In this document: piece after piece, positions 4,562 through 22,387 of the stretch | Position numbering within the stretch: position 1 is the stretch's first letter | How the letters are laid out: every line of letters begins with the position of its first letter | Source of the DNA: Gallionella sp. | GTDB lineage: Bacteria > Pseudomonadota > Gammaproteobacteria > Burkholderiales > Gallionellaceae | NCBI GenBank assembly: GCA_024653675.1 | Contig: JANLIB010000005.1 | Span: 1-32,851, forward strand | Length of the DNA stretch: 32,851 nt | Direction: 5' to 3' | The notes under the pieces: model-generated | What the model saw: the letters and a program-made list of their open reading frames with translations, nothing else | What the model was told of the DNA's origin: nothing | Database searches by the model: none | Position numbers and translations under genes: made by a program

Positions 4562-7500
4562 TTAACTCGCCAACTCCAACCGGGTAATGCTTCCAGCCGT
4601 ATTTTTCGCTCCGGTGACATGCTGACTTTTGCCATTCGTTGCGTACTTACTTACCCATATACCGACTCGATATCCATCTGTCGTCTTGTAATGGCGAGGA
4701 ACCTTGACATGCCCTTCTCGATCTGCGAATTCCTTGAGATAGTGAAATCCTTCTTCCCACTTATCTGCACGAGCATCCCAACTCCATCCGGGTAATGCTT
4801 CCAGCCGTACTTTATGCTCCGGTGATATGCTGCCATTGTTGCTCCGCTGAACACGAACCCAATTACCAAGGCGGCACCCATCTTCTGTTTTATATAGCGC
4901 AGATACCTTGGCATGCCCCTCTCGATCTGTGAATTCCATAAGATAGCGAAATCCTTTTTCCCAATTATCTGCACGAGCATCCCAACTCCATCCATGTAAT
5001 GCTTTCAGCCGCGCTTTGCGCTCCGGTGACATGTTGTCTTTTGTTCTTCGTTGAATCCCTACCCAGCTACCGAGTCGATATCCATCTGCCGTTTTATAAT
5101 CGCGAGGAACCTTGGCATGCCCCTCTCGATCTGCGAATTCCCTGAGATAGCGAAATCCTTCTTCCCACTTATCTGACAAAGCATTCCAACTCCAACCGGG
5201 TAATGCTTCCAGCCGTGCTTTGCGCTCCGGCGATAGGTTGTCTTTTGCTATTCGTTGTTCATTGACCCAGCTGCCGACTCGATATCCATCTGCCGTTTTG
5301 TACAACGCGGGCACTAGGCAATGCCCCTCTCGATCAGTGAATTCCATAAGATAGCGAAATCCTTTTTCCCACTTATCTGAAAAAGCATTCCAACTCCAAC
5401 CGGGTAATGCTTCCAGTCGTGCTTTGCGCTCCGGCGATAGGTTGTCTTTTGTTGTTCGTTGTGTTCCTACCCAGCTACCGGCTCGATATCCATCTGCCGT
5501 TTTGTAATCGTAAGGAACCTTGGCATGCCCCTCTCGATCTGCGAATTCCTTAAGATGGCGAAACCCCTCCTCCCAAGCATCCTCAAGAGTATTCCAACTC
5601 CAACCGGGTAATGTTTCCAGCCGTGCTTTGCGCTCTGGTGACAGGCTGTCTTTTGTTATTCGTTGCTTAATTACCCAGCCACCGACTCGATATCCCTCTG
5701 CCGTTTTATAATCGTAAGGAACCTTGGCATGCCCATCACGTTCCACAAATGCCTCCAACAACCCAAACCAGAAATTCCACGACGCCGTGACCTGCTCAAC
5801 CAGATAGGTGCGCAGTGCGCTGCCGAAATTAGCATCTACTGTAGTGGGTAAGTCGATAAATATTTTGCGCAGGCCATCGGCGCTGATACTTGAACCAGGC
5901 TTCCTGCCTAGTTCAGTTCTGATCTGATCCAGTTCGGCAGACAGCACATCGTCGTGCGCTTTCAACGCGTTCAGCACATCCCAGATGGGTTTGAAGTTGC
6001 TGGCCGCTATCGTGTCTTCGGCATTTTCCCCGGTGGCGATAAATACCGGCAGAACGATGGTGCCCGCCTTCTTGTCCGGACTCAGGCGAATGGCGCGACC
6101 CACGGCCTGGATGATGTCCACCTGACTGCTGCGCGGGTCGATGAACGCCACGCCGTCGAGGGAGGGCACGTCCACGCCTTCGGACAAACAGCGCGCATTG
6201 CTCAGAAGTCCTCTCCTTAATTCTTTCCCTAAATCCCCTCTCTCTAACTCTCTGGTGGAACAACTAGCCAATCCACTAAGCCCGCAAGCGGGCAAGTGGC
6301 TGGTTATCCCACAATGGGGAGAGAGGACAAGCGGTTCATCTGCGCCCAAGTTTTTGAGTTGGTCGAGTTTGATCTTGCGTTTGTTGGCGGGCATGTTGCC
6401 GGAGACGAAATCGGTGCGCAGGGTTCCGCTGGGGCGATGTTCGTCGCTGATCCATTCCATGATGCCTTGAATGTCTGCGGCAAACGCTTCGGCGCGCTTG
6501 ACGCGGCTGTGGAAGCTGATGATGCGCTTGAGGTCGTAGTCTTTGATGGCTTTGAGCAGACCGATCTGGGCGGCGAGCGATTCGCTGTCGGTTTCACGAG
6601 TTGAGCTTGGATGATTTTTTTGATCATGAAAAGCACCCTCACCCCCACCCTCTCCCAGAGGGCGAGGGAGCGAAAGGCTGACCAGTTTGCGGTTGGCGAT
6701 CCACTGCGCGATGGTGGGGTCATCCACGCCGATGATGACGACGCGGTAATCGGTGAGCAGTTTGCGTTCGATGGCTTTACCGAACGGCAGCGCATACAGC
6801 ACTTCGCCAAACAGGGCGGCGTTGTCCATGCCGACCACTTCGACGCCGCGATCTTCGGCGGCTTTATGCACGGTGCTGGAATAGGTGCGCGGGGTGGCGG
6901 TGGCGAATAGCCGCTTGGCGCTGCGTATCTGCACGTTGTCGAGGATGGCGGTAAAGTCGCTGCCGACCTTGCCCGCGCAACGGTGGGCTTCGTCTGCCAC
7001 GGCCAGATCAAATGCGGGGATTGCCGGGTCGGCCTGGGCGGCGGCGATGACGGCGGAAGATTGGTAGGTGGAGAACACCACGCGGTTGCCTGCGCCGCTG
7101 AGAAAGCGTTTTACTTCTTCCGCATCGGATGTGACGGGAAAAGCGAGGTCGGCCACGCTGTGGATGGCTTCGTCGTTGCCCTTGCTGCCGACGGTTTGAT
7201 CCGAGCAGACGCACAGCACTTCAAACGGGGTGGCGGCGGCGAATGTCCATTCGCGCAGAAGCTGGGACAGCAGCCCCAATGACGGAACCAGCACCAGTGT
7301 GCGTTGCGCGTTTAGCGCTTCCTTGATCCACAGCGTGACGTATGTCTTGCCGGTGCCGCAGGCCATGATGAGCTGGCCACGGTCGGCGCTTTGCAGTCCT
7401 TGCACCACGGCGGCTCGGGCTTCGATCTGGTGGTCGCGCGGTTCGGGGCGGGGTTTGCGTTTGGCTTGCGGGAGTGCGGCAAAGTTGGCGGGATAGTCCA

Positions 7501-7924
7501 GCACGGATTTATCGAAGTCGGAGAGCAGAAACCGGACGACGGGTTTTTCCTGTGCATCACAGACTTGCTTCGCGTTCGCGCCGATGCCGTCGGTGGTGGC
7601 AATCAGCAGGCGGTGCTGGATGCTAGGCCGGTTCGATTCGCTGAGGAATTTATCCACATCGTGTTTGGTGATGTCGTAGTCGGGCGAGTAGCACTTGGCT
7701 TGCACCGCCCAGTGTTTGCCGTTCTTGTGCTGGAACACGAGGTCAATGCCGCAGTCCGCCCCCCAGCGCCCCGGCCATTCATCCCATAGCCACACTTGAT
7801 CGACTTGCGTCGCCCATTCGGGATCGGCCTTGAGGAACCATTTGACGAAGTGCTCGAACTGCTTGCCCCGCTTGAGCGGGTCGGCATCGAGGCTGTTGTA
7901 GAAATCGGAAAATTGGCTGGGCAT
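4562..7924 (-). CDS. Mrr-like restriction endonuclease + DEAD/DEAH helicase + six C-terminal helicase-associated (HA) repeats
   Basis: N-terminal [19 protein letters not shown] (D-QxK nuclease motif), MACGTGKT (Walker A), [20 protein letters not shown]; then ~68-aa repeats ...[62 protein letters not shown]. Confidence 0.88.
4660..5790 (-). repeat. Tandem ~204-bp coding repeats (six HA-domain units)
   Basis: Recurring catgcc[c/t][c/t]tctcgatc[t/a]g[c/t]gaattcc and caactcca[a/t]ccgggtaatgcttccagccgtgcttt at ~204-bp spacing. Confidence 0.9.
6208..6328. mobile_element. Candidate ~121-bp MITE-like palindromic element inside the helicase ORF
   Basis: Terminal GTCCTCTC (6208-6215) / GAGAGGAC (6321-6328), with an internal hairpin (6261-6310) shared with other intergenic repeats; removing 123 nt restores ...[21 protein letters not shown]. 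Confidence 0.6.
6604..6680. repeat. In-frame insertion of a CCCTC/GAGGG palindromic repeat in the helicase ORF
   Basis: accctcacccccaccctctcccagagggcgagggagcgaaag encodes [15 protein letters not shown], low-complexity relative to the helicase fold. Confidence 0.55.
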
Positions 7925-14818: not shown

Positions 14819-14895
<77 letters not shown>

Positions 14896-15018
14896 AAGGC
14901 GCGGATTATACAGAGGGGACAAGACTCATGACAAATCATTCTCACTCTACCGATACATTTCTGTGGAAACCTGCTCGACATAGTCTATAACATAGCGGCA
15001 GAAGTCGTAGCGAGCGGA

Positions 15019-15104
15019 CTTGAGGCGGGCCGGGACGGAGCGCAGGAACCGGAGTGTACAAGTAGTACACGAGGATTCCGAGCACCGCACCGGCTCGCCT
15101 CATG
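15019..15104. repeat. Long imperfect palindrome (cttgaggcgggccgg ... ggaaccggagtgtac-aagta-gtacacgaggattcc ... ccggctcgcctcatg)
   Basis: Nested complementary arms across ~86 nt of noncoding sequence. Confidence 0.7.
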
Positions 15105-15109
15105 TTCGC

Positions 15110-15245
15110 GCATAACCAATGACTTGGTTGGCGTTAACCAGCGGCTTATGTCACCGTATTTTGGTGACTTAGCCGAATGGCTATGCAAAGCTGTTTGCCA
15201 ACTTAGTCAGATGGCAAGTCGTTCTACCAGTAGACTTAGCCGCCA
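15110..15245. repeat. Hairpin array downstream of the suf operon (CATAACCAATGACTTGGTTGGCG ... CGGCTTATGTCACC-GTATTTT-GGTGACTTAGCCG ...)
   Basis: Several adjacent stem-loops; shares core sequence with 22331-22387 and 6261-6310. Confidence 0.65.
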
Positions 15246-22330: not shown

Positions 22331-22387
22331 CCACATAACCAGCGACTTGGCTGGCGTCTTTTGCCAGCTTAGTCGCTGGTTATGTGG
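22331..22387. repeat. Near-perfect 57-nt hairpin CCACATAACCAGCGACTTGGCTGGC-gtctttt-GCCAGCTTAGTCGCTGGTTATGTGG
   Basis: 25-nt arms with a single 2x2 TG/TT internal loop; lies between the divergent Rrf2 and ParA genes. Confidence 0.9.

Follow-up and report, generated by a model that had tools for sequence, protein, structure and literature searches.

What is the imperfect hairpin that flanks a suf operon on both sides and recurs inside a helicase gene of Gallionella sp.? A first-pass annotation of the window (the whole 32,851-nucleotide stretch of DNA analyzed here) had grouped hairpins at these three sites by a common core, and all three are present where it placed them. A search of the window with the pattern ATAACCAGCGACTTG, allowing up to three mismatches, returned 8 matches compared to 0.57 expected, and the hairpin at 22331-22387 has a folding energy of -48 kcal/mol (z = -12). 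Used as a blastn query against the host genome (G000, a 2.94 Mb draft in 307 contigs), the hairpin at 22333 found dozens more copies. A covariance model (E < 0.001) identified approximately 99 distinct copies in this genome, far more than the three from which the family had been proposed. An Rfam search of the window matched only a tRNA and sX9 and none of the hairpins, in agreement with the annotation, which had recognized no named family.

To describe the structure, we aligned the stems of 29 distinct cores (42-49 nt) from the fetched loci. We found that 96.9% of cells pair on TAACCA.CGACT.GGCTGNC/GNCAGCC.AGTCG..TGG.TA, with a covariation score of 0.270 compared to 0.124 for shuffled alignments (0 of 500 reach 0.270) and at most 0.062 for slid structures. 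As the structure was read from the same sequences, the double changes are a stronger argument than the score. The annotation had called for compensatory changes, and 11 of 17 stem pairs carry double changes, with CGACTT/TAGTCG replaced by CCACTT/TAGTGG, TGACTT/TAGTCA or CGGCTT/TAGCCG. Mispairs, meanwhile, are conserved: among 198 distinct cores, an A.C mispair at 3:47 is fixed in 189, a T.T mismatch at 13:36 is found in 181, and a G.A mispair at 7:42 is found in 162 and swapped to A.G in 18. Because these mispairs are fixed around stem pairs that vary, the proposal of an internal loop kept despite stem changes was correct in substance, though what is kept is really a T.T mismatch, a separate G/AA asymmetric loop and an A.C mismatch.

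The hairpin was found in 131 of 150 Gallionellaceae genomes, spanning 14 of 15 genera; copy counts per genome across the family are lower bounds, as few candidates were scored. Within the same genus, 23 of 24 genomes carry 3 to 112 copies. Positive genomes include three that are assembled as single contigs (G056, G119 and G135, with 34, 24 and 33 copies, respectively), so the family is not an assembly artifact. The hairpin is absent from 16 genomes that represent other families of the order, and among 273 other genomes of the class only one was positive, with a single copy. This lone copy (genome G304, L333 1501-1560) lies in a host repeat of the CCCCTCCCC kind and is possibly the result of horizontal transfer. 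In a contig scan, the carriers were named Gallionella, Sideroxydans, Ferrigenium, other Nitrosomonadales MAGs and a few differently labeled bins, and no virus contig contained an exact match. The hairpin family is therefore essentially confined to Gallionellaceae, and the suggestion of a lineage-specific repeat with conserved structure agrees with both this near-confinement and the covariation.

The repeating unit is 57-60 nt long and consists of an imperfect stem-loop, TAACCA...TGGCTA (42-49 nt), followed by a short 3' tail. There are two subfamilies, which have the core in common and differ in their tails. Class 1 (60 nt) ends in the tail GTWGTTYCAYCA and is inserted at A^G, usually within another palindromic repeat, whereas class 2 ends in TGCAAAGC and is placed in the loops of REP hairpins. 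To find unoccupied sites, we joined the flanks of 185 copies and sought the joined sequence in the fetched loci. Empty sites were found that run straight through the join, gap-free. For example, a site filled in L088 is empty in L103 (join between CGCGCTCAGACA and GTCCTCGCCG), L206 and L152 form a filled/empty pair with 97.5% identity over 158 nt (join between CCCCGCTTGCGGGA and GAGGATTGAGG), and L058 and L098 form such a pair for class 2 (join between GGGGCGCGATT and TATCGCGCCC); further pairs are L089 with L165 and L302 with L002. None of the filled/empty pairs has a target-site duplication (0 or 1 nt, a shared A that fits either side). We considered solo tails as possible excision footprints and rejected them: nearly all of 19 exact tail matches were joined to a core or a nested copy, and one tail, at C69, was alone.

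The class 1 target reads (G/C)(G/A)(G/C)A^G, with A at a frequency of 0.93 and G at 0.89, and is CT on the other strand; the class 2 motif is less defined, and in 14 of 23 cases the class 2 site is part of an apical loop. Empty targets fold more stably than control sites from the same loci, with mean z of -1.08 for class 1 and -2.02 for class 2 compared to -0.37 and -0.14 for the controls, values that are relative because the shuffles preserve single-base composition only. The host repeats of the element include CCCTCTCCCGC-AA-GCGGGAGAGGG, GGGCTTCGACAGGCTCAGCCC and several GTAG REPs, as well as GGATTCCGGC-CTTC-GCCGGAATGACG, a CGTC-type REP by the scheme of PMC3733652. Copies are also nested in one another, both in other loci (L039, L069, L115, L163 and L200) and in the window at 15113-15229. 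One spot, CGCTCAGACA^GTCCTCGCCGA inside GGTCAGG...CCTGACC, is filled in many genomes by copies with class 1 or class 2 tails (L076, L079, L081, L088, L110, L138, L178 and L191).

Table 1. Copies of the hairpin and neighboring features in the window.
Feature	Position	Strand	Remarks
Atypical copy	22331..22387	+	Covariance-model match 22336-22382
Left part of outer class 1 copy, TAACCAATGACTTGGTTGGCGT	15113..15134	+	Sequence resumes at 15192
Inner class 2 copy	15135..15191	+	Core 15135-15183, tail TGCAAAGC 15184-15191
Right part of outer class 1 copy, TGTTTGCCAACTTAGTCAGATGGCAA and 12-nt tail GTCGTTCTACCA	15192..15229	+	By analogy with the family
sX9 match (Rfam RF02228)	14997..15070	-	Adjoins the copy nested at 15113; probably a further dispersed repeat
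tRNA gene	14822..14895	-	Between the suf operon end and neighboring genes
Helicase gene (host gene), 1120-aa protein	4562..7924	-	Mrr-type nuclease, ResIII/DEAD helicase, six HA domains
Class 1 copy, 42-nt core subfamily, 54 nt	6253..6306	-	Core 6265-6306, tail GTTGTTCCACCA 6253-6264
Whole in-frame insertion, host repeat CCTCTCTCC... and nested class 1 copy	6205..6332	-	Borders approximate
Six HA (helicase associated) domain repeats	4646..5824		204 nt each
Second in-frame insertion-like peptide in the helicase gene, 24 aa	~6600..6660	-	Resembles the CCCTCTCCC host repeat without guest

The copies in the window are listed in Table 1. At 22333, the left arm of the common core is normal (TAACCAGCGACTTGG...), but the right arm is not that of the family; it is an inverted left arm (TTAGTCGCTGGTTA), and the symmetry extends 5 nt into the flank (CCACA / TGTGG). 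Across 61 genomes, we found only 3 copies of this left-left kind and none of a right-right kind. This copy may have arisen by rearrangement or inversion between inverted copies, as both of its flanks resemble left flanks of other copies; such an origin, however, predicts right-right copies. As none were found, we prefer an origin by template switching that corrected an imperfect palindrome; with left-left copies numbering only 3, however, we do not consider this proven. At the site at 15110, which also belongs to the family, the loop of a class 1 copy in fact harbors a class 2 copy. Any window of this length is expected to contain approximately 1.2 copies, so the flanking of the suf operon is nothing special.

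The helicase site is likewise a member of the family, in this case nested inside another palindromic repeat that is itself in frame. The reading frame of the gene stays open through the insertion, and the class 1 copy amounts to 18 amino acids in frame. The insertion (~120 nt) is missing from most close orthologues in the same genus, and in the orthologues of G011 and G018 the point of insertion is occupied by host-type repeat sequence that lacks the guest hairpin. The comparison of orthologues thus makes three stages visible: empty, host repeat, and host repeat with guest.

The helicase gene is one of many that contain the element. Among 131 distinct class 1 copies on sufficiently long loci, 50 (at least 38%) sit within a long ORF at a depth of 150 nt or more, and 49 of these 50 are in the three phases that are free of element stop codons. 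Gene calls came from a simple ORF finder, and ten were checked by Pfam; all ten were real genes, encoding PurL, LeuRS, a Mur ligase, PDH E2, a UvrD-type helicase, a CheA-like kinase, an AcrB-type transporter, a molybdopterin oxidoreductase, a radical SAM protein and a protein matching an SMC hinge. The predicted extra peptide is typically DGTTSHSTRLSKNASQVAGY, or ~20 amino acids. Mapped onto solved structures, the insertion in PurL (~40 aa in all) lies cleanly between the neighboring residues 795 and 796; in LeuRS, the insertion (~59 aa in all) is as clean to within one residue, between 569 and 571. This LeuRS, encoded on C217, is the sole strong hit to the editing domain of LeuRS in a genome that is 99.99% complete, and so the insertion-bearing enzyme presumably works.

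Stop-free frames of at least 200 codons contain 73 of 131 class 1 copies compared to 1 of 15 class 2 copies (p = 2.4e-4). Total length is divisible by 3 in 154 of 167 class 1 copies (p = 4e-23, which overstates the independent evidence because the frame-neutral length may reflect one old subfamily). A core of 47 nt comes with a tail of 13 nt, and a core of 48 nt with one of 12 nt. The difference in frame-neutral length between copies inside and outside ORFs was not significant (48 of 50 vs. 72 of 81, p = 0.20). Together, the 60-nt length and the pairing of 47-nt cores with 13-nt tails would make most class 1 insertions frame-neutral, allowing copies in genes to survive; they would do so as insertions of ~20 amino acids, usually within a longer host-repeat insertion.

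Comparison of these loci across genomes demonstrates mobility, scarless insertion, a preference for palindromes, nesting and tolerance in frame. The mobility, the nesting in palindromes and the reading in frame within protein genes are additions to what the first-pass annotation had read in these hairpins. We propose, with a probability of roughly 0.6, that the element is a non-autonomous mobile DNA hairpin that is moved by an HUH/Y1-type enzyme and nests in palindromes. The picture of a mobile, nesting hairpin carried in frame is, judging from sequence, very probably right; the step by a Y1 transposase, taken alone, is tentative, with the odds somewhat against it, and a RAYT/IS200-like enzyme is our best guess. 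Mechanistically, the hairpin would move as folded single-stranded DNA. An HUH/Y1 transposase of the RAYT/IS200 type would act in trans on the mismatched hairpin and join it to a short target motif, and the tail would help choose the target. No host function is needed to explain the hairpin.

IS200/IS605-type (HUH Y1) transposition occurs without target-site duplication, and the combination of fixed mispairs with scarless insertion at a short motif is a signature of HUH Y1 enzymes (IS200/IS605, RAYT). Characterized TnpA-REP enzymes cut at CT (PMC8266576), the dinucleotide that the class 1 target A^G forms on the opposite strand. Two features count against a Y1 enzyme: the tetranucleotide at the foot of the hairpin on the CT strand is CWAC and not GTAG, and the published guide rule predicts GT or GA whereas the element's site is CT. 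The host genome contains five Y1/RAYT-like genes (L031-L035), each next to a REP or palindromic repeat of a different kind, and the element itself was not seen beside any of the five. Some of the repeats beside these genes also serve as targets of the element. The flanks of Y1 genes in relatives were screened for pairs of copies only. With respect to an autonomous partner, the spacing within pairs of copies 0.2-3.5 kb apart follows no common pattern, and there is no obvious transposase among the ORFs of the one gap between copies for which they were listed. Copy number is weakly correlated with the number of Y1 genes (rho 0.40, p 0.05, uncorrected); in G022, a genome that is 83% complete, no Y1 gene was detected alongside the 112 copies.

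A stronger version of this proposal, which we regard as somewhat unlikely, is that the hairpin is hyper-parasitic, a 60-nt mobile DNA that lives inside mobile palindromes, is guided by its tail and has its length held at 20 codons. The tail would then act as the guide, directing class 1 to CT-type sites and class 2 to REP loops, and a core of -1 would be offset by a tail of +1 because copies are routinely translated in essential proteins.

It is also possible, though unlikely, that the hairpin does not move by itself but travels as cargo of host palindromes (REPs and the CCCTCTCCC type), spreading with the composite repeat, for example by means of a RAYT. The 42-nt subfamily looks as if this had happened, with many near-identical copies in the GGATTCCGGCC-TTC-GCCGGAATGACG repeat whose outer flanks differ, and the five REP-flanked Y1 genes of the host genome would fit as well. 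However, the element is found at precise points of many unrelated host repeats and is also nested in itself, and filled and empty versions of one repeat coexist; these observations require independent insertions of the guest alone.

More doubtful still is that the hairpin is a structural RNA or an element acting at the mRNA level (a terminator, stabilizer or small RNA) that is under selection and has spread by recombination. The strong covariation, the copies flanking the suf operon and the excess of G.T over A.C at paired positions on the written strand (98 vs. 40, although one pair supplies 56, more than half) would fit such an element, but the A.C, T.T and G.A mispairs are conserved and both orientations occur. 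Furthermore, ~40% or more of the copies are inside genes, mostly antisense to them, the site at 22333 is between divergent genes, and Rfam gives no match. A terminator role in particular was rejected, as there is no strong enrichment at convergent gene ends: copies lie between convergent genes only slightly more often than background gaps do (22 of 107 vs. 71 of 400). Similarly improbable is another scarless enzyme working on palindromes, either a recombinase of the IS110 type (IS621-like), a group with known members that insert in REPs (PMC1525189), or an integrase of integrons working on folded DNA, whose attC sites are likewise hairpins with extrahelical bases. Scarless insertion would suit both, but the element's targets are many and loosely defined (SRSA^G), whereas those of IS110 are long and fixed; inspection of the aligned copies shows no attC motif RYYYAAC...GTTRRRY, and the copies are dispersed without cassettes.

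The mobile hairpin resembles several known systems. Rickettsia palindromic elements (RPE; Ogata et al. 2000) are 105-146 bp long with terminal inverted repeats (PMC2229807). Like the Gallionellaceae element, they are small, many-copy palindromic mobile repeats found both in intergenic regions and in frame in conserved genes, whose products apparently tolerate them; unlike RPE, the element is 57-60 nt with one hairpin and a tail, nests in other palindromes and inhabits free-living iron oxidizers as opposed to obligate intracellular hosts. We claim no sequence kinship with RPE; Rickettsia belongs to another class. GTAG and CGTC REPs (PMC3733652), the latter, like the element, with no known transposase, are also short imperfect stem-loops with covarying stems, high copy number and some intragenic copies, whereas the element has a longer stem and a 12-nt tail and uses such REPs as insertion sites. 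At its 5' foot there is no GT(A/G)G, but host flank on one strand and CWAC or TGCA on the other; a GTWG is seen on the 3' side of the hairpin alone, and the element does not have the CGTC tag, 8-9 bp stem and CCA-type tail that define CGTC REPs.

Substrates of IS200/IS605 and TnpA-REP (RAYT) enzymes (PMC6006769, PMC8266576) are single-strand hairpins that require their mispairs; the element resembles them in the conserved mispairs of its hairpin and in a short target motif that is CT on one strand, but they have two ends where the element has one hairpin, its foot is CWAC or TGCA, and no linked transposase gene was found. IS1397, IS621 and ISPpu9/10 (PMC1525189) also insert into palindromic repeats; those are full transposons encoding their enzyme, in contrast to a 60-nt non-autonomous hairpin. 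Unlike a classical MITE, the element has no target-site duplication in filled/empty pairs. The small dispersed repeats (SDR) of cyanobacteria, which PMC3116915 cites, are, like the element, very small mobile repeats. We found no description of the Gallionellaceae element in the open-licence literature. It works like RPE and intragenic REPs, yet lacks the defining size or tag of each.

As a caution, annotated Gallionellaceae proteins contain repeat-derived inserts of ~20-60 amino acids. In-frame palindromic insertions have so far been best known from Rickettsia and from scattered intragenic REPs. Here, a tiny element carried by almost all genomes of a free-living family provides many precise pairs of loci, filled and empty, with and without the peptide. 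With these pairs, it becomes testable how REP-like hairpins move without a dedicated transposase, whether they choose targets that are palindromic, and how proteins tolerate inserted selfish peptides.
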